Part shown: positions 14,449 to 26,125 of the stretch, piece by piece
How positions within the stretch are numbered: the stretch's first letter is position 1
Layout of the letters: each line of letters opens with the position of its first letter
DNA from: Mobilicoccus caccae
GTDB lineage: Bacteria > Actinomycetota > Actinomycetes > Actinomycetales > Dermatophilaceae
NCBI RefSeq assembly: GCF_030161635.1
Contig: NZ_BSUO01000001.1
Span: 248,001-312,000, forward strand
Reading direction: 5' to 3'
Length of the DNA: 64,000 nucleotides
Program-made: the position numbers and the translations under genes
Notes under the pieces: generated by a model
Database searches by the model: none
The model's input: the letters and a program-made list of their open reading frames with translations, nothing else
What the model was told of the DNA's origin: nothing

Positions 14449-14964
14449 TCAGGACTTCTGGTCGAACAGGTGCCGTCCAGATCCCCCGGCGCGTGCACCC
14501 GTGGCGGTGTACGTCGTGGAGTCCTGGGACGTGTGGTTGAACCGGTCGAGGGTCTCCTGAACGGCGCGGTAGCTCGCCTCGAGCATGGCGCTGTTCGACC
14601 GGCTGAGACGGGACAGTTCCTGTGTGGCCTTGGTGAGGGCGTCGCGGTGCTCGTCGAGGACGTCGTCCCACGGCGGCGGCGCCGCCGAGGCGATCTCGGA
14701 CAACGGCGTGTCCTCGGGCAGGCCGAGCAGTTCGCACACCGGTCCCGCGTCGACGGAGCGCATGAGTTCCGCCTCGCGCATCTCGCCGATGACGACTTCG
14801 ATCTCGCGCGTGGAGCGACCCATCCACCGGGTTCTGCCGGTCTCGATCAGGACATGCTGAACCTCCAGCCGGTAGGTGAGGAGTTCCAGGAGTTCCTGGA
14901 TCCGCCACAGGCCGGCTGAGAGGTTGGAGAGTACCGTCGTCGCGGCGTCGGAGGGGCCGGTCAC
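14449..14964 (-). CDS. flgN: FlgN-like flagellar chaperone
   Basis: The protein has 171 residues and is mostly helical: LSNLSAGLWRIQELLELLTY, VQHVLIETGRTRWMGRSTRE, PPWDDVLDEHRDALTKATQE. This matches the actinobacterial FlgN family, the export chaperone for the hook-filament junction proteins FlgK and FlgL. GTG 14964 with GCTGAGG upstream is the best start; other in-frame GTGs are weaker. flgK and flgL, which usually follow, are not in the window. A sigma-28-like promoter lies at 14992-15018. Confidence 0.82.
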   Translation of the reverse strand: MTGPSDAATTVLSNLSAGLWRIQELLELLTYRLEVQHVLIETGRTRWMGRSTREIEVVIGEMREAELMRSVDAGPVCELLGLPEDTPLSEIASAAPPPWDDVLDEHRDALTKATQELSRLSRSNSAMLEASYRAVQETLDRFNHTSQDSTTYTATGARAGGSGRHLFDQKS

Positions 14965-14991
14965 GCGTGCCTCAGCTCGTTCACGAACGTT

Positions 14992-15018
14992 CAATCGGCC
15001 GGTGTCCTCGGCAGGTAA
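14992..15018 (-). promoter_or_regulatory. Probable sigma-28 promoter for flgN-fliW-csrA
   Basis: On the minus strand, TTAC, 15 bases, then GCCGATTG lie about 28 bases upstream of the flgN start. The -10 box and the spacing fit the window-wide FliA motif; the -35 box is a weaker match. Confidence 0.45.
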
Positions 15019-15545
15019 GGGTTTCGAGGACATCCGGGAGAGGTGACGCGAGAAGTGCCGGAGCGGGGCGACCGGCGATATCGGCGGTGATGTCGATGTC
15101 GATCCGGGATGTTGCATCCAGCGGAGGGGCCCTGGGGTTCAGAACGCCGGTGCCGGGTCCGAATAGATGGACGCATCCACCCGCGGTCGGGCCCGCACAC
15201 GCTCGCCCGACGGTCGGGCCGGGAGCGAAGTGCTTGACGGTGAAGCGAATTGGCGTGGCTCCTTTGGAGGAGCGATATGGGATCGATTCTCGTGTGGCTC
15301 TGAAGGATATTCTGGGCAAGCGTTCTGGACATGTACTGGACAATCGATCAATTGCTGCTTCAACATGTTCACAACCCCTCGGAGTTGCATCTAACGAGGC
15401 CCCCTGATCGCTACCTGAGAGTAGGCGAAGGCCCTCTGACCTGCGCCGATGCCCCGAGCATGGGCGATTTGTCGTCCACCCGCACCTCTTCCTAGCGTGT
15501 CGTTGTGACCGCAATTCCCGGTGTCTTGCGAGGTGGGAGAAAACC
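15019..15545. other. Intergenic region with locally low GC
   Basis: About 530 bp without a supported gene. The stretch 15230-15410 is clearly richer in A/T than its surroundings. Only the fliA1 promoter near its right end can be recognised. Short open frames here have no protein-like composition. Confidence 0.5.
15469..15498 (+). promoter_or_regulatory. Housekeeping-type promoter of the first fliA copy
   Basis: TTGTCG, 18 bases, TAGCGT. The -10 and following bases (CTTCCTAGCGT ... GTGACCGC) are conserved upstream of the second copy, although flanking sequence is otherwise unrelated. I infer a shared sigma-A-type control. Confidence 0.45.
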
Positions 15546-16430
15546 GTGACTGAAGTGAAGGTCGACGCCGTCGACATGGATGAGTTGTGTCGTGCGCACT
15601 TGCCGTTGGTGCATTTTGAGGTGCGGGCGATCGGGTCTCGGTTGCCTGGGCATGTGTTCACTGATGATCTGGTGAGTGCTGGGATGGCTGCGTTGGCGAT
15701 GGCTGCGCGGAGTTTTGATGCGTCGTTGGGTGTGCCGTTCGGTCGGTATGCGGTGCGTCGGATTCGTGGGGCGTTGTTGGATGAGTTGCGGTCTGCGGAT
15801 TGGGCGACTCGGTCGTTGCGGGCGAAGGTGCGTCGGCGGGATGCGGTGCATGATTCGTTGGCGGCGTCGTTGGGTCGTCGGCCGTCGCCGGTGGAGGTGG
15901 CTGCCGAGTTGGGGTGTTCGGTGGCGGAGTTGGAGCGTTTGGAGGCTGATCTTCATTCGTCGGTGGTGTTGCGTCTTGATGTGATCACTGATGCTTCTGG
16001 TGGTGGGGGTGCGGCGGATGCGATTTTGCCGTCGACGGATGCGACGCCGGAGATGGTGTTGATGGCGCGGGAGCGTCAGGCGTATCTGCGGGATGCGATC
16101 GAGGCGTTGCCGGATCGGTTGGCGACGGTGGTGCGTGGGTGTTTCTTCGAGGATCGTCCGATGCGGGAGTTGGCGGAGGATCTGGGTGTGACGGAGTCGC
16201 GGATCTCGCAGATGCGTGCTGAGGCGTTGCGGTTGTTGCGCGATGGATTGAATTCGCAGTTGGATCCGGCGATGTTGGCGTCTTCGGGTGATCGTCCGGT
16301 GAATGCCACTGGTGCGGTGGCTCGTCGGAAGGCGGCGTATTACGCGCAGATCGCGGCGCGGTCCTCGTATCGGGACCGGTTGAGCATGCCCACCGCAGGC
16401 GAGGCCGCCGCTGCATCCATGAGTGGGTGA
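15546..16430 (+). CDS. fliA: FliA/sigma-28-type RNA polymerase sigma factor, copy 1
   Basis: The protein has 294 residues. Region 2 is LVSAGMAALAMAARSFDA and FGRYAVRRIRGALLDELRSADW (the FliA-type RSxDW signature). Region 3 is RRPSPVEVAAELGCSVAEL. Region 4 is LPDRLATVVRGCFFEDRPMRELAEDLGVTESRISQMRAEAL. FliA directs late flagellar and chemotaxis genes. Start GTG 15546 follows GAGGTGGGAG. Codons 10-286 are an almost exact copy of the gene at 19234. Third positions are rich in G and T (TTG, CGT, GGT), unlike neighbouring genes, which favour C and G. Confidence 0.92.
   Translation: MTEVKVDAVDMDELCRAHLPLVHFEVRAIGSRLPGHVFTDDLVSAGMAALAMAARSFDASLGVPFGRYAVRRIRGALLDELRSADWATRSLRAKVRRRDAVHDSLAASLGRRPSPVEVAAELGCSVAELERLEADLHSSVVLRLDVITDASGGGGAADAILPSTDATPEMVLMARERQAYLRDAIEALPDRLATVVRGCFFEDRPMRELAEDLGVTESRISQMRAEALRLLRDGLNSQLDPAMLASSGDRPVNATGAVARRKAAYYAQIAARSSYRDRLSMPTAGEAAAASMSG
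15572..16403 (+). repeat. 832-bp direct repeat, copy 1 (core of the sigma gene)
   Basis: Colinear with 19263-20094 without gaps. I count three mismatches (15839 and two near 16232-16239), all synonymous. The repeat covers codons from the conserved DMDELCRAHLP to LSMPTAGE, leaving unique N- and C-termini. Confidence 0.9.
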
Positions 16431-16663
16431 CAGGGGCTTCGCCACTGCCGATACTCGGACCAGGAGCCGGCGTGCTCCACGACAACTGAATCGGCCTCAC
16501 CCGAGGCCCGTGAACTTCCGAGACCTTCGAACTCCGTGCGACAACACGTCGAGCGCGATCCTCGGATTCGGTCGGTCGGCGGCTTTCCCCAGCTGCGACC
16601 GATCGGGTTCGGTGCCATTCCCCCAAGCGGCATCGGACCCCACCGGTTCCCCGGCCGGTGTGG

Positions 16664-16710
16664 AAGGCCCCTGCCGACCGTGCTCCCCAACACGGTCGGG
16701 CAGGGGCCTT
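16664..16710. terminator. Strong bidirectional hairpin terminator
   Basis: AAGGCCCCTGCCGACCGTG pairs with CACGGTCGGGCAGGGGCCTT (one bulge) around an 8-base loop, between fliA copy 1 and the convergent GT/methyltransferase gene. The 16431-16663 stretch to its left shows no gene. Confidence 0.75.
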
Positions 16711-16754
16711 CGTCGTCCCCGGCAGAACCCGTGGGCAGAACCGTCGGCGCTGTC

Positions 16755-18122
16755 CTAGGCGCGTCTGGCCCGCAAGACGTACTCGTAGGCCTCGAGCATC
16801 GTGCGGGCCTCGTCGGAGTCGGTGCCGTAGGAGGCGATGCAGCCCACGAGGGCGTCGAGGTGGGAGGGGTCGTGCAGGGGGATCTCCTCCACGCCGCACG
16901 CCTCGATCCTGCTGAGGCCGAGGCGACGGAACATCGCGACGGCCTCGACCATGGTGAACAGGTGGATGCTGCCCCGGTGCAGCAGGCCGGCGTCGCGGTA
17001 CTCGAACCGGTCGTGGAGCAGCAGCGGCAGCACGACCGACCAGTGCTTGACGTTGGGGATCGCGGCGACGACCACCCCGTCGGGCGCCAGGTAGGGGAGC
17101 AGCGCGGCGAGGCTCGCCTCGGGGTCGACGAGCCGGTCGAGGATGTCGACGGCGACGATCGCGTCGAAGTGGCCGCGTTCCTGATCGAGGTCGGGGAGCC
17201 GGTTGAGATCCGCTGCGACGACGTGATGCAGGGTGCGGCGGGCCTGGTCGAGATGCCCGCCCTCGTGGTCGATCCCGGTGACGACGGCGCCGCGCTCGAC
17301 GGCCAGGCGGTGGGCGAAGACCCCTGTTCCGCAACCGAGCTGCAGGACGCGGCCGGCGGTCGGCGGGACGGCCTGGAGGATGCGCCGGTGCCGGGCCGTG
17401 AACCCGGACTCGGGCGGGGCGGGCGCGGGCAGGGTGCCGAACCGCTCCGGGCGCTCGTGGGTGCCCTCCTCCAGCGCGACGTGGTGTTCGAGGGTGCCGA
17501 GCGTCACCGACCGCGCCCGACGCCCCTGCCAGACCGCCGCCGCCTGCTGGTAGGCCGCGTCGATGTCGTCCGGGTCGGCGTGGCGGGTCAGGGAGATCGG
17601 TTCGACCGAGATGCGCCAGCCCTGCTCGCGGGCGCGGTGGCAGAAGTCGACCTCGAACCCGCTGGGGCCGGTGAAGGCGACGTCGTCGAAGCGCAGCCGG
17701 GCGGCGAGGTCGGGACGCAGCACGATGCAGGCCGAGTCCACGTAGTCCACGGGCGTGCCGGCGTTGTCCGCGGCCCCCGGAGGTGAGCCCGGATGGCTGC
17801 GCGCGGCCGTCTGCCACCAGCGCGGCTCGGAGCCGGCGCCGCTCGCGCCGATGATCGCGAGCTGCGGGTCACGCTCGAAGGCGGCGAGGATCCGGGTGCG
17901 AAAGTGCGGGTCGACGATCTCGACGTCGTCGCGCAGGAGCACCACGGCCTCCACCCCGTCGAGGTCGAGGCTGGCCTCGAGAACGTCGTTGTAGGTGCGG
18001 GCGACGGGCAGGTCCGGTGAGGACATCAGGGTCGCGTCATCGCCGCCGTAGGCCGCGATGGCGGGCAGGCAGTGTCGGTCGAAGCGGTCGGTGGATTCGA
18101 CGCACACGCCGAAGACGAACAT
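16755..18122 (-). CDS. Glycosyltransferase-like domain fused to SAM-dependent methyltransferase
   Basis: The protein has 455 residues. Residues 1-210 resemble a GT2-type domain (DGVEAVVLLRDDVEIVDPHF, DSACIVLRPDLAARLRFDD, GFEVDFCHRAREQGWRISVE). Residues about 245-400 form a class I methyltransferase (GRVLQLGCGTGVFAHRL, VVTGIDHEGGH, FDAIVAVDILDRL, GVVVAAIPNVKHWSV). The fusion could transfer and methylate a sugar. A strong sigma-28-like promoter at 18173-18199 drives it and it lies between the fliA copies, so modification of flagellin is the likely role. Length and domains fit known actinobacterial fusions. Confidence 0.85.
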   Translation of the reverse strand: MFVFGVCVESTDRFDRHCLPAIAAYGGDDATLMSSPDLPVARTYNDVLEASLDLDGVEAVVLLRDDVEIVDPHFRTRILAAFERDPQLAIIGASGAGSEPRWWQTAARSHPGSPPGAADNAGTPVDYVDSACIVLRPDLAARLRFDDVAFTGPSGFEVDFCHRAREQGWRISVEPISLTRHADPDDIDAAYQQAAAVWQGRRARSVTLGTLEHHVALEEGTHERPERFGTLPAPAPPESGFTARHRRILQAVPPTAGRVLQLGCGTGVFAHRLAVERGAVVTGIDHEGGHLDQARRTLHHVVAADLNRLPDLDQERGHFDAIVAVDILDRLVDPEASLAALLPYLAPDGVVVAAIPNVKHWSVVLPLLLHDRFEYRDAGLLHRGSIHLFTMVEAVAMFRRLGLSRIEACGVEEIPLHDPSHLDALVGCIASYGTDSDEARTMLEAYEYVLRARRA

Positions 18123-18172
18123 CGCGAAAGTCCCTTCCGTCGGACGCGCGTCCCGCGACCCGTCCAGGACTC

Positions 18173-18199
18173 TGATCGGCCTTCGACCTCCGTCGCTGA
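18173..18199 (-). promoter_or_regulatory. Sigma-28-like promoter of the GT/methyltransferase gene
   Basis: On the minus strand: TCAG, 15 bases, GCCGATCA, about 50 bases upstream of ATG 18122. Same boxes and spacing as upstream of flagellin, cheA and cheX. Confidence 0.65.
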
Positions 18200-18209
18200 G
18201 GCCATCCGG

Positions 18210-18698
18210 TCAGCGCTCGTGGGCAGGTGCGCCCTGCTCGCAGGCCGCCTTGATCCCCTGGAGGGTCTGCCTCATCCCCGCGCGCATCGTCCTCGTGAAC
18301 GCCTCCGTCCCGCCCATGTACTTCTGGGTCAGTCCGTGGGCGTGGTCGGAGATGCCGTCGGGGGCTTCGCGGCGTTGGACGAGCCGCGTGCCCGGACCGG
18401 GGGTCTCCTCCAGCGTGAATGACCAGACGAGCCAGTTCTCGTCCAGGCGGAACGCCATCGCGCGACAGGGCTCGAAGTGCACGATCTCGCCGTGGGTCGT
18501 CCACGCGAGTGGGCCGCTCTCGTTGTGGTTGACGAATCGGACGCCGACCTCGAGATGGACGGCGCCGTCCAGCAGTGTGGTCTCGCGGACCTGCGGGCTC
18601 CATTCCGGGAGGCGACGGACATCACCGACCATCGACCAGACGATGTGCGGGGGTGCATCGATGAGGACGTCCACCTCGAGGGTCTCCAGGGCGGGCAC
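18210..18698 (-). CDS. SRPBCC (START-like) family protein
   Basis: The protein has 162 residues. VDVLIDAPPHIVWSMVGDV and RRLPEWSPQVRETTLLDG mark the polyketide-cyclase/SRPBCC fold, a hydrophobic-ligand pocket. RLVQRREAPDGISDHAH and the helical end complete it. GTG 18698 follows GGAGA. Its stop lies just upstream of the sigma-28 promoter of the next minus-strand gene. Ligand unknown; no direct link to motility is visible. Confidence 0.75.
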   Translation of the reverse strand: MPALETLEVDVLIDAPPHIVWSMVGDVRRLPEWSPQVRETTLLDGAVHLEVGVRFVNHNESGPLAWTTHGEIVHFEPCRAMAFRLDENWLVWSFTLEETPGPGTRLVQRREAPDGISDHAHGLTQKYMGGTEAFTRTMRAGMRQTLQGIKAACEQGAPAHER

Positions 18699-19233
18699 GG
18701 CATTCTCCGATCGCTCGAGATCGACGCATCGCTCGACGTGTCGAGAGGCCCTGTCCCATTCCAGGGGGCGGCCCGAATCGAGCCTATTCCTGTCTTCGAA
18801 GCGCGGACAGGGATGAAGGCGCACAGGTGCCGGCAGGGGGTGATCGCCTCCACGAAAGCGGCCGTGATGGGGGCGTCTGCGACGTCTTCGACACCTCTGT
18901 CGGGGCAGTGGTGGCGGAGGAGAGGAGGCCTCGGACCTGGGCGGACTGTCAGAAAAGTGACGTTCTCTGATTTTTTGGGCGCATGTCCAATACGTGCGAC
19001 CGACCCTGTTGATCAGGTATCGACAATGGCGTTCTGCTACCGAGTGTTTCAGCATTGCGCAAAGGAATCGTCAGGGCTTCTCATGCATTCATGCGTGCGT
19101 CCATCTTGGCCGGAGCGGGGTATCCTGTGAGTCTGTGACCAGCGGCGTCTCATCAGATGGACGACCTTGGAGCGGCCGGAGAAGGTTCTTAGCGTTCTCT
19201 GAGTGACCGCGTTATTGGGTGGGGTGGAAAAAT
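18699..19233. other. Intergenic region upstream of fliA copy 2
   Basis: About 530 bp without a supported gene. From 18940 to 19150 it is A/T-richer than the genome, like the region before copy 1. It contains the copy 2 promoter at 19167-19195. Confidence 0.5.
19167..19195 (+). promoter_or_regulatory. Housekeeping-type promoter of the second fliA copy
   Basis: TTGGAG, 17 bases, TAGCGT, then GTGACCGC. The TTC(C/T)TAGCGT and GTGACCGC elements match the first copy's upstream region. Confidence 0.45.
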
Positions 19234-20118
19234 ATGGGTCCTGAATCGAAGGCCCCTGCGAACGACATGGATGAGTTGTGTCGTGCGCACTTGCCGTTGG
19301 TGCATTTTGAGGTGCGGGCGATCGGGTCTCGGTTGCCTGGGCATGTGTTCACTGATGATCTGGTGAGTGCTGGGATGGCTGCGTTGGCGATGGCTGCGCG
19401 GAGTTTTGATGCGTCGTTGGGTGTGCCGTTCGGTCGGTATGCGGTGCGTCGGATTCGTGGGGCGTTGTTGGATGAGTTGCGGTCTGCGGATTGGGCGACT
19501 CGGTCGTTGCGGGCGAAGGTGCGTCGGCGTGATGCGGTGCATGATTCGTTGGCGGCGTCGTTGGGTCGTCGGCCGTCGCCGGTGGAGGTGGCTGCCGAGT
19601 TGGGGTGTTCGGTGGCGGAGTTGGAGCGTTTGGAGGCTGATCTTCATTCGTCGGTGGTGTTGCGTCTTGATGTGATCACTGATGCTTCTGGTGGTGGGGG
19701 TGCGGCGGATGCGATTTTGCCGTCGACGGATGCGACGCCGGAGATGGTGTTGATGGCGCGGGAGCGTCAGGCGTATCTGCGGGATGCGATCGAGGCGTTG
19801 CCGGATCGGTTGGCGACGGTGGTGCGTGGGTGTTTCTTCGAGGATCGTCCGATGCGGGAGTTGGCGGAGGATCTGGGTGTGACGGAGTCGCGGATCTCGC
19901 AGATGCGTGCTGAGGCGTTGCGGTTGTTGCGGGATGGGTTGAATTCGCAGTTGGATCCGGCGATGTTGGCGTCTTCGGGTGATCGTCCGGTGAATGCCAC
20001 TGGTGCGGTGGCTCGTCGGAAGGCGGCGTATTACGCGCAGATCGCGGCGCGGTCCTCGTATCGGGACCGGTTGAGCATGCCCACCGCAGGCGAGACGACC
20101 TCCGCGGCCATCGGCTGA
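19234..20118 (+). CDS. fliA: FliA/sigma-28-type RNA polymerase sigma factor, copy 2
   Basis: The protein has 294 residues. The core is identical in protein sequence to the copy at 15546. Only the first residues (MGPESKAPANDMDEL) and the last (AGETTSAAIG) differ. ATG 19234 follows GGTGGGGTGG. It carries the same sigma region 2 RSADW and region 4 HTH and the same unusual G/T-rich third positions. It lies 150 bp upstream of flagellin, which has its own sigma-28 promoter. The two copies probably have the same promoter specificity. Confidence 0.92.
   Translation: MGPESKAPANDMDELCRAHLPLVHFEVRAIGSRLPGHVFTDDLVSAGMAALAMAARSFDASLGVPFGRYAVRRIRGALLDELRSADWATRSLRAKVRRRDAVHDSLAASLGRRPSPVEVAAELGCSVAELERLEADLHSSVVLRLDVITDASGGGGAADAILPSTDATPEMVLMARERQAYLRDAIEALPDRLATVVRGCFFEDRPMRELAEDLGVTESRISQMRAEALRLLRDGLNSQLDPAMLASSGDRPVNATGAVARRKAAYYAQIAARSSYRDRLSMPTAGETTSAAIG
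19263..20094 (+). repeat. 832-bp direct repeat, copy 2 (core of the sigma gene)
   Basis: Colinear with 15572-16403 (offset 3691) with three synonymous mismatches seen. Flanks are unrelated, so the duplication boundaries are inside the coding sequence. Confidence 0.9.
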
Positions 20119-20267: not shown

Positions 20268-21331
20268 ATGCGGATCCCGGTCGACCAGGACGCCTTGGCG
20301 CGTATGGTCGCGCGCCACGTGTCAGCCCATCAGGCGGCGTCGGTGACGGCTGCCCGGCGCCTGGCCGACATCACTCCGAACGCCGCCGACGACGCGGCGG
20401 GCGTGGCCATCGCCACCCGCATGCAGGCCCGCGCGGCGAGCGCGGCGGCCGCCTCCCACAACGTGCAGGACGGCATCTCGCTGATGCAGGTCGCCGACGG
20501 CGCCCTGGCGGCGATGACCGCCTATCTCGACAAGGTCAGGGTCGTGGCCGTGCAGGCGGCGACCGACACCTTCGACGACACCCAGCGCAGCGCCCTGCAG
20601 ATCGGCGTCGACTCCCTGCTGCAGGGGTTCGACGACACGTGGCGGTCCATCAGCGAATCGACCCGGTCGATCCAGGTGGGCATCGACGCCGGCGACACGC
20701 TCACTGTCCCGGCCGGTCTCGACGGCGAGCGGTCCTGGGGGTCTCCGTGCAGAGCGCCGACTCCGCACGATCGGCGCTCGACATGCTGGACGAGGCGTTG
20801 CAGGAGCTCTACGCGCAGCGGGCCGCCGTGGGCGCCGCGGAGAACCGGCTGGGTCGGATCCTCGAGTCGCTCGGGGTGCAGGAGTCGCAGGGCGCGCAGA
20901 CCGCCTCGCGGATCACCGACGCCGACCTGGGTCGGGAGGTCATCCAACTCCTTCGTTCGCGCTCGTGGGCGCAGGCCGGCGCGCAGATGCTCGGTGAGGT
21001 CACGGCCGCCGGTCGTCGGGCGATGGAGATCCTTCTGGCGTCGGCGGCGACCGTCTCGGCCGAGGCAGCGGCGGACAGTCCTCCGGCGACCGGGTCCGCG
21101 GCGGCGCCCCCGGCGAGTGCGCCGTCCCCGATGCCCATGCTCATGCGCCCCGCCGTGGACGTCTCCCCGCTGCCTGCGGCTCCTTCGCCCGGTCCTCGGC
21201 TCGCTCCCGCGGGCGTAGAGTCCGCTTCCTCGGAACCTCATCTCACGGCCACGCCTCTGCCCGTGCAGAATTCGACGGCCGAGTTGGCTTCGACGTCGGC
21301 CGGTCCTGCCGATAGGACCTCGACCGTGTAG
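20268..21331 (+). CDS. Flagellin-like protein with C-terminal Pro/Ala-rich tail, frameshifted as sequenced
   Basis: About 354 residues after correction. Residues about 40-130 match the flagellin N-domain (NAADDAAGVAIATRMQAR, SHNVQDGISLMQVADGALA, VAVQAATDTFDD). After a short centre, the C-domain follows (SADSARSALDMLDEALQEL, AAVGAAENRLGRILESL, ITDADLGREVIQLLRSRSW). There is no variable D2/D3 domain. The frame breaks at the G5 run 20737-20741; one base restores it. Unusually, about 90 Pro/Ala/Ser residues follow the D0 helix, where flagellins normally end. The extreme N-terminus is also divergent. It could be the filament protein or a minor flagellin-like component. Confidence 0.8.
21289..21315 (+). 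promoter_or_regulatory. Possible sigma-28 promoter of the glycosyltransferase at 21379
   Basis: TTCG, 15 bases, GCCGATAG, inside the 3' end of the flagellin gene, 64 bases before the next start. The -10 box is perfect; the -35 box is weak. Confidence 0.4.
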
Positions 21332-24701: not shown

Positions 24702-24857
24702 TGGTCTGAGCGTGAGTGAGCGGAAGGAGATCCTGGCGCTCGTGATGCGTGCGACCAGCACCAGTCAGAGCGAGTTGTCCAGGTTGAGCGGGTGCACCAG
24801 CCCAGCATCAGTCAGTTCCTGTCCGTGAGGTTCCCCCGGACCGTAGAGGCATCGACA

Positions 24858-25160
24858 ATGAGGATCGAGATGCCAGAGAAGCGGAAGAAGTACGACCGGG
24901 AGTTCCGTGAGGGAGCTGTCCGGATCGTCGAAGAGACCGGGAAGCCGATCGCCCAGATCGCGCGCGACCTTGGCGTGAACGAGGGCACGTTGGGCAACTG
25001 GGTGAACCGCGCACGCGAGGCTGCCGAGGGCACCAGAGGGTTGTCGAAGGACGACGTCGAGGAGCTCAAGCGGCTGCGTGCCGAGGTCGCCGAGCTCCGG
25101 ATGGAGCGTGATGTCCTCAAGCGATCCGTGGTCCTGTGGGTCAAGGAGGCGACGAAGTGA
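24858..25160 (+). CDS. IS3 family OrfA (HTH)
   Basis: The protein has 100 residues. KRKKYDREFREGAVRIVEE, KPIAQIARDLGVNEGTLGNW and RLRAEVAELRMERDVLKRSV give the IS3 OrfA helix-turn-helix plus leucine-zipper helix that binds the terminal repeats. ATG 24858 or the nearby ATG 24870 may start it. The stop overlaps the orfB start (GTGA). Confidence 0.92.
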   Translation: MRIEMPEKRKKYDREFREGAVRIVEETGKPIAQIARDLGVNEGTLGNWVNRAREAAEGTRGLSKDDVEELKRLRAEVAELRMERDVLKRSVVLWVKEATK

Positions 25161-26125
25161 GCGTGGCACGCTTCATCGCCGACCAGAGGACCAACTACCG
25201 GGTGCCACACACCGTGACCTGCCTGCTGCTGGGGGTGTCCCTAGCGTGGTTCTACAAGTGGCTCACCCGTGCCACCGGACCGTCGGCGTCCAGCGGTCTG
25301 CACACCTCTCGGGACCGTCGCCGCGACACCATCGACCGGGCCGTGAAGGTGATGTTCACGAGCAAGCGCGGCCTGCATGGCTCGCCCCGCTTGGTCCATG
25401 ATCTGCGTGACGACGGCTGGCAGGTCAGCGAGAAGACCGTCGCGGACTCGATGCGTCGCCAGGGCCTGGTTGCGCGTCGGATCAAACGTCGCAACGGGCT
25501 GACCAGGCAAGACAAGACCGCGCCGAAGTTCCCTGACCTGCTCAAGCGGGACTTCACCGCCCAGCGGCCCAACGCAAGGTGGGTCGGCGACATGACCGAG
25601 ATCCCGACCGTCGACGAGCACGGCCGGCCGGGCCCGAAGCTGTACCTGGCGACCGTGATCGACCTCTACTCCCGGCGTCTGCTCGGCGCGGCCACCGGGC
25701 TGCATCCCGACGCCGAACTGGCCTGCTCGGCGCTCAAGATGGCCGTCGCGGCCCGTGGCGGCGTGGACGCGGTCAACGGTCCCGACTGGCGCACCGACGA
25801 GACCCAGCGCGTCATCTTCCACACCGACCGAGGCTCGACTTACACGGCGAACTCGTTCACCAGACTGTGCCGTCAACTCGGGGTCCGCCAGTCGATGGGC
25901 CGGGTCGGATCGTGCTTCGACAATGCCGCGGCCGAGGCGTTCTTCTCCTCCCTGGAGTGGGAGGTGCTGTCGCGACACGAGTTCACCAACACCCGCGCCG
26001 CTCGGGCCGTTGTGCTGGACTGGTGCTACGGGTTCTACAACCACGACCGCCGGCACAGCTCGGCGGGCATGATGAGCCCCGTCAGCTACGAGAACACCGC
26101 GGCCCTCGACCGGGAAGCCGCATAG
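25157..26125 (+). CDS. IS3 family OrfB transposase
   Basis: The protein has 322 residues. HTH_21-like and integrase-core regions are visible, with the DDE catalytic triad: Asp in ARWVGDMTEI, Asp in VIFHTDRGSTY and Glu in AEAFFSSLEWE. LHGSPRLVHDLRDDGWQVSE and YGFYNHDRRHSS are typical. The frame is intact, so the element may be active. It starts at GTG 25157, overlapping orfA, instead of needing an obvious slippery site. Confidence 0.94.
   Translation: MSVARFIADQRTNYRVPHTVTCLLLGVSLAWFYKWLTRATGPSASSGLHTSRDRRRDTIDRAVKVMFTSKRGLHGSPRLVHDLRDDGWQVSEKTVADSMRRQGLVARRIKRRNGLTRQDKTAPKFPDLLKRDFTAQRPNARWVGDMTEIPTVDEHGRPGPKLYLATVIDLYSRRLLGAATGLHPDAELACSALKMAVAARGGVDAVNGPDWRTDETQRVIFHTDRGSTYTANSFTRLCRQLGVRQSMGRVGSCFDNAAAEAFFSSLEWEVLSRHEFTNTRAARAVVLDWCYGFYNHDRRHSSAGMMSPVSYENTAALDREAA

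Follow-up and report, generated by a model that had tools for sequence, protein, structure and literature searches.

Two nearly identical copies of the sigma factor gene fliA lie in a flagellar region of Mobilicoccus caccae (family Dermatophilaceae; assembly GCF_030161635.1), raising the question of how two genes with different ends and different surroundings come to be almost the same in between. The window analyzed here is a stretch of 64,000 nucleotides, positions 248,001 to 312,000 of contig NZ_BSUO01000001.1, and coordinates are given within it. The reading favored here, at a probability of about 0.55, is that the copies are ancient duplicates under recurrent, strand-biased gene conversion that drives them toward the keto bases (G and T), its direction being set by the mismatch-repair enzyme NucS. 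The genes and the tracts concerned are as follows.

15546..16430, plus strand: fliA copy A, a FliA/WhiG-type sigma factor of 294 aa (Pfam Sigma70_r2, Sigma70_r3 and Sigma70_r4; NCBIfam FliA_WhiG, E 4e-51; FlgN and FliW gene neighbors)
19234..20118, plus strand: fliA copy B, a FliA/WhiG-type sigma factor of 294 aa from the ATG at 19234 (Pfam and NCBIfam matches as for copy A; upstream of a flagellin-like gene)
15572..16403, plus strand: homogenized tract of copy A (832 bp, 99.64% identity to the copy B tract; G+T at third positions 0.95 across codons 25-265 of the alignment)
19263..20094, plus strand: homogenized tract of copy B (pairs with 15572-16403; third-position G+T 0.96)

BLAST recovers the two tracts as a single, gap-free direct-repeat pair, and comparison of the codons shows three differences, all of them synonymous (CGG/CGT, CGC/CGG and GGA/GGG). 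Outside the tracts the genes differ, in roughly 10 codons at either end and in the flanks. The initial annotation had described 832 colinear bases with three synonymous mismatches inside differing termini and flanks, and both parts of that description hold. A whole-genome search found these two fliA copies and no more. In both proteins sigma-70 regions 2, 3 and 4 each score above the Pfam cut-off and region 1 is absent; TIGR02479 (FliA/WhiG) is the top NCBIfam match, but its 173.9 bits fall short of the curated cut-off of 189.6, so that the products are best called FliA-like, without formal family assignment. FlgN, FliW and flagellin-like neighbors give the pair a flagellar context.

The age of the pair is read from its relatives, as it is common, together with its flanking genes, to several Dermatophilaceae genera (Mobilicoccus, Agilicoccus, Austwickia, Dermatophilus and others). 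The layout in these relatives is FliW and FlgN genes on the minus strand, copy A on the plus strand, usually a fused glycosyltransferase/methyltransferase (GT/MT) gene on the minus strand, copy B on the plus strand, and then flagellin-like and glycosyltransferase genes. Outgroups with one fliA retain the order FliW-FlgN-fliA-flagellin, which places the duplication in the ancestor of the two-copy genera. Copy identity within a genome is 98.0–99.9% in six two-copy genomes (M. caccae, M. massiliensis, Agilicoccus, G041, G062 and G091), compared with 72–91% between species (9–28% difference), and a tree constrained to a single A-copy clade is rejected by the approximately unbiased (AU) test (p-AU 4e-67). 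Direct evidence of recombination comes from a single-contig Dermatophilus genome (G014), where the only fliA has a copy A N-terminus joined to a copy B C-terminus, and where the GT/MT gene is lost; this indicates deletion by recombination between the direct repeats, and therefore a recombinationally active pair. Paralogs that sit at orthologous loci and yet resemble their partner in the genome more than their counterparts in other species, together with such recombination, are the marks of concerted evolution. That recurrent gene conversion has kept these ancient fliA duplicates alike, along most of their coding sequence, is virtually certain.

Of the two origins offered by the initial annotation, gene conversion is thus borne out by identity within and between species, shared synteny and the rejected A-clade tree. 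The near-identity of the copies would also be produced, in the absence of continuing conversion, by a very recent duplication or by horizontal acquisition of a G/T-rich gene; this has next to no chance of being correct, being contradicted by the syntenic pair in several genera, by the same phylogeny and by near-saturated synonymous divergence between genera. Comparing copy number in relatives, as had been proposed, gave two syntenic copies in several genera and one in Piscicoccus, the outgroups and G014. Mis-assembly of the repeats is unlikely, because independent assemblies of relatives, including the single-contig G041 and the near-closed G062, hold two syntenic copies. An apparent loss of copy B in Austwickia G054 proved to be no truncation, as a 100-N assembly gap lies within the repeat. 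Two genomes of the genus of M. caccae (G013 and G090) gave no fliA match, which suggests that motility was lost within the genus.

The most unusual feature of the pair is its base composition, which the initial annotation had missed. On the coding strand, third-position G+T reaches 0.94–0.97 in homogenized copies, compared with 0.35–0.52 in the single copy of Piscicoccus, the outgroups and a diverged pair in genome G103. Within homogenized tracts third-position C drops from ~0.5 to <0.1 and A is nearly gone, and in most genomes the leucine codon TTG replaces CTG and CTC. GC content is 0.63 in the tract and 0.69 in its flanks, while GC at third positions is 0.70 in copy A of M. caccae against 0.90 in Piscicoccus, and the rise that marks GC-biased gene conversion is not seen. 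The balance of G to T tracks genome GC, fliA being T-rich in G062 and G-rich in Agilicoccus; at fourfold sites C and A are both depleted, in fliA as in the tuf genes discussed below. Among sampled stretches of the M. caccae genome totaling 844 kb, fliA provides the strongest chromosomal keto windows, and only an 86 kb plasmid-like contig ranks higher. A genome-wide pattern scan for third-position keto runs caught the fliA tract along with low-complexity genes read in a different codon phase, and is too loose to serve as a screen. An antisense open reading frame (ORF) was rejected as the cause, as the minus-strand ORF of 317 aa over copy A has a counterpart of only 152 aa over copy B and is unconserved.

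This composition goes with homogenization. G103, whose two copies are 80.6% alike, and Piscicoccus, with one copy, are nested among the biased genera in an rpoB tree yet have ordinary composition, indicating that the keto state follows homogenization and not species. The same holds inside one gene: the mosaic pair of Austwickia G084 has third-position A+C mostly of 0–0.2 where the copies are identical and 0.4–0.7 where they differ, and local copy divergence correlates with third-position A+C at a Spearman rho of 0.81, with a p-value inflated by overlapping windows. In other genomes the bias fades across the last 10–20 codons of the tract, where conversion is expected to be rarest. Synonymous sites between genera are near saturation with C and A still excluded, thus showing a bias that is maintained and no relic, and ruling out a foreign G/T-rich gene as its source. 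A keto bias of the coding strand linked to conversion can therefore be held with good confidence.

Two explanations would make conversion a bystander. Selection on codon usage, messenger RNA structure or the transcription of fliA might favor codons ending in G or T, and the extreme composition and its restriction to coding sequence would suit such selection; it is nevertheless improbable, as ordinary composition is found in the diverged blocks of this very gene within G084, in the diverged G103 pair, in the single Piscicoccus copy, and in the rpoB and single-copy tuf of M. caccae. More improbable still is mutation linked to transcription or replication, such as C to T on an exposed strand. This would account for part of the rise in T, but it should affect the whole gene and the single-copy orthologs as well, and it leaves aside that C also goes to G, that A is removed and that the diverged blocks of G084 are exempt.

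If conversion in NucS genomes favors keto bases, other converting pairs in such genomes should be keto-rich, and this prediction was tested on duplicated elongation-factor genes (tuf) from genomes across the phylum, with fusA as the internal control. In two-tuf genomes with NucS, third-position G+T of tuf and fusA is 0.81 and 0.48 (G201), 0.86 and 0.43 (G235), and 0.77 and 0.40 (G370), while G260, where NucS is present and the copies are only 96.5% alike, gives 0.57 and 0.44. NucS genomes with a single tuf have values of 0.41–0.47, equal to fusA. In the eight genomes where neither NucS nor MutS could be detected (families f26, f28 and f50), tuf pairs 98.6–100% alike remain at 0.36–0.46, no higher than fusA wherever a fusA value was obtained. 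Genomes with MutS give 0.51, 0.65 and 0.66 against 0.52–0.53, and tufA of Escherichia coli gives 0.51 against 0.53. In the tuf pairs of the MutS genomes (G231, G261 and G278) C is lost and A is kept, the outcome that a model would predict for a gain of G if C.C were the one mismatch missed by MutS.

A further 12 homogenized tuf pairs (f20, f32, f34, f48 and f62) are raised by 0.26–0.43; among these families NucS has been shown in f32 for G370 only, and f20, f34, f48 and f62 lie outside the NucS-scored set. No rise occurs in the diverged pairs of f53 (85–87% alike) or in the single copies of f20 and f34, and the diverged pairs of G327 and G487 stand at 0.45 and 0.48. Altogether 19 of 29 homogenized pairs are keto-rich; of the 15 others 1 is, a pair of 92.7% identity. 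The trend below the level of the gene is weaker than in fliA (rho 0.38 in G260 and 0.26 in G201). That the signature appears in an unrelated gene once it is duplicated and homogenized also speaks against selection on fliA. The link between homogenization and keto bias is strong in direction, repeated at sub-gene scale in fliA and well supported, and its further association with NucS is suggestive.

The coincidence of homogenization and GT-richness at sub-gene scale could also be read in the reverse order, with RecA pairing and forming filaments best on GT-rich strands, so that GT-rich variants convert more often and GT-richness itself creates a recombination hotspot. In keeping with this, RecA filaments show their greatest stability on TGG repeats (PMC3763553). 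RecA is near-universal, however, and neither the homogenized tuf of the eight genomes with no detectable NucS and MutS nor E. coli tufA shows a rise, leaving this explanation doubtful, though less so than selection or mutation. The fliA tract resembles the GT-rich islands at Chi sites and the pairing sequences preferred by RecA in being recombining DNA that is GT-rich on the coding strand; it differs in that its richness tracks homogenization within the gene and is missing from NucS-free tuf pairs.

The direction of conversion under the favored reading would come from NucS, which was found in all 13 Dermatophilaceae genomes searched, with MutS in none of the 13. NucS acts on G.G, G.T and T.T mismatches and blocks recombination between unlike repeats (PMC11551767, PMC11551744, PMC5290159), and these three are exactly the keto.keto set. 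If one copy contributes a single strand that pairs with the other, each keto/amino difference would give either a keto.keto or an amino.amino mismatch; NucS would revert the former, and the latter would escape and become fixed. With a mostly antisense incoming strand, only changes to G or T on the coding strand would survive. Such an antisense excess is expected if lagging-strand pieces pair with the coding strand where a gene runs in the direction of the replication fork. Judged from the position of dnaA, fliA is co-oriented with the fork in the five genomes that allowed dnaA to be placed; these share one inherited arrangement and do not amount to five tests. Differences between G and T would offer NucS no target, so that the ratio of G to T should follow genome GC, as is observed.

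A two-copy site model with these NucS rules and mostly antisense incoming strands predicts A 0.006, C 0.05, G 0.85 and T 0.09, and the tuf composition of G235 (A 0.00, C 0.06, G 0.81, T 0.13) is close to it; a simple model matches the composition at about 90–95% antisense incoming strands. In such a model the incoming strand would be mostly antisense; the chance that NucS is the cause of the keto bias is put at even. Evenly balanced as well is the wider proposal, by which the restriction of NucS to keto.keto mismatches produces a general, strand-specific, keto-driving conversion in Actinobacteria that recodes every frequently converting pair (fliA, tuf and others) toward G+T on one strand and so records which strand was transferred.

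Several observations weigh against NucS-directed conversion. The model predicts less T than fliA has, and a 2026 preprint suggests that in M. tuberculosis there may be less NucS repair while recombination takes place (PMC13061034). The bias persists in the single fliA of G014, which is accounted for only if the deletion in that genome is recent. In the MutS genomes G261 and G278 tuf rises partly (0.65 against 0.53), with C alone lost and A rising, and keto bias is also found in tuf of f20, f34, f48 and f62, families beyond those scored for NucS. Once relatedness is considered, five supported tuf contrasts are left, of which about 3.6 agree and none is opposed (p 0.125), and just one independent contrast bears on NucS status.

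Most of what is known of biased gene conversion concerns GC, and how such conversion works in bacteria is debated. The fliA pair is similar to GC-biased conversion in that certain bases are favored and composition is reshaped where conversion acts; it differs as GC falls in fliA and the bias distinguishes keto from amino bases on one strand rather than GC from AT. As a case of concerted evolution it is comparable to tufA/tufB, paralogs with different flanks long homogenized by conversion (PMC6053082), although the portion of that survey's text available here names no sigma factor and no directional, strand-specific shift in composition. Concerted evolution and GC-biased conversion are thus already known kinds, and the keto-biased, strand-specific form is new to the open-access literature searched, which holds no account of such conversion and none that ties NucS to the composition of converting genes. 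Composition drive between paralogs is likewise absent from the NucS/EndoMS literature searched; the preprint mentioned above (PMC13061034) raises repair asymmetry in paralogous regions and goes no further.

Should NucS prove to be the cause, one could read from genome sequence alone which mismatches a repair enzyme corrects and in which direction strands are transferred during conversion in vivo. Where actinobacterial genes are duplicated, as with tuf, an extreme codon usage would then not need to signal selection, and both codon-adaptation indices and claims of foreign origin would be affected.

The elements that may control the two genes, and the genes around them, are the following.

15493..15549, plus strand: TAGCGT (15493) and GTGACCGC (GTG at 15505), opening an upstream ORF of 14 codons, its TGA overlapping the fliA GTG (conserved in other genera, mostly in frame with fliA; putative promoter)
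19190..19244, plus strand: TAGCGT (19190) and GTGACCGC (GTG at 19203), opening a short upstream ORF that overlaps the ATG at 19234 (putative promoter)
14449..15117, minus strand: FlgN chaperone gene, left neighbor of copy A in all genomes compared (FlgN, E 2e-15; synteny)
16755..18122, minus strand: fused GT/MT gene between the copies (Methyltransf_23, E 2e-12; weak Glyco_tranf_2; position conserved)
18210..18750, minus strand: small SRPBCC-like gene between the copies (in M. caccae only among the genomes compared; named from its sequence, with no database match)
20271..21331, plus strand: flagellin-like gene, right neighbor of copy B, with the frame broken near 20750 (Flagellin_N, E 3e-17; ORF list)

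The initial annotation had proposed that both copies share control through TAGCGT and GTGACCGC. The motif does stand before both, and the -10-like element is retained upstream of most fliA copies in Dermatophilaceae; shared control itself is plausible, with the promoter role a prediction from sequence. The motif is best read as a likely -10-like box 6–7 bp ahead of an ancestral leaderless GTG start (GTG ACC GCT TC.), a GTG that is in frame with fliA in several genera and in M. caccae opens the short upstream ORF that overlaps the fliA start. The likely reason for which both genes persist would be selection for two differently placed, predicted promoters on one protein. A conserved element of the form ~TGACCTGCG..TTCTCA..ATGTGGAC, a possible activator site, precedes the -10-like box by about 60 bp in many A and B copies of several genera, and in M. 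caccae it lies at ~15405-15450 and ~19138-19175.

The GT/MT gene lies within the interval as had been described, and the added suggestion that it is driven by sigma-28 is weakly supported. A sigma-28-like box (TCAG-N15-GCCGATC) is present upstream of it near 18199 on the minus strand in M. caccae, and none was seen at this gene in the relatives examined. Consensus-like boxes of this type were found upstream of only a flagellin-like gene and the GT/MT gene.

The flagellin-like gene is split across two frames near 20750, and a purF-like region near 10.5 kb is among the other places with a broken frame. Together with an assembly completeness of 89%, these breaks suggest indel errors in the assembly, or a pseudogene; probable indel errors near the repeats leave the comparison of copies in independent genomes unaffected. 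In each of the two rRNA operons, one strand is strongly keto-rich over a part that is probably the 16S-23S spacer (L221:3301-3900 and L134:11901-12500); this may be the same effect since rRNA operons also convert, though G/T-rich spacers may be ordinary. The 86 kb plasmid-like contig (C2) holds a strong G/T-rich stretch beside a conjugation-type ATPase gene (L208:9701-11300). Downstream of the flagellar region of the window, an IS3-like transposase gene pair occupies two overlapping frames at 24792-26125.

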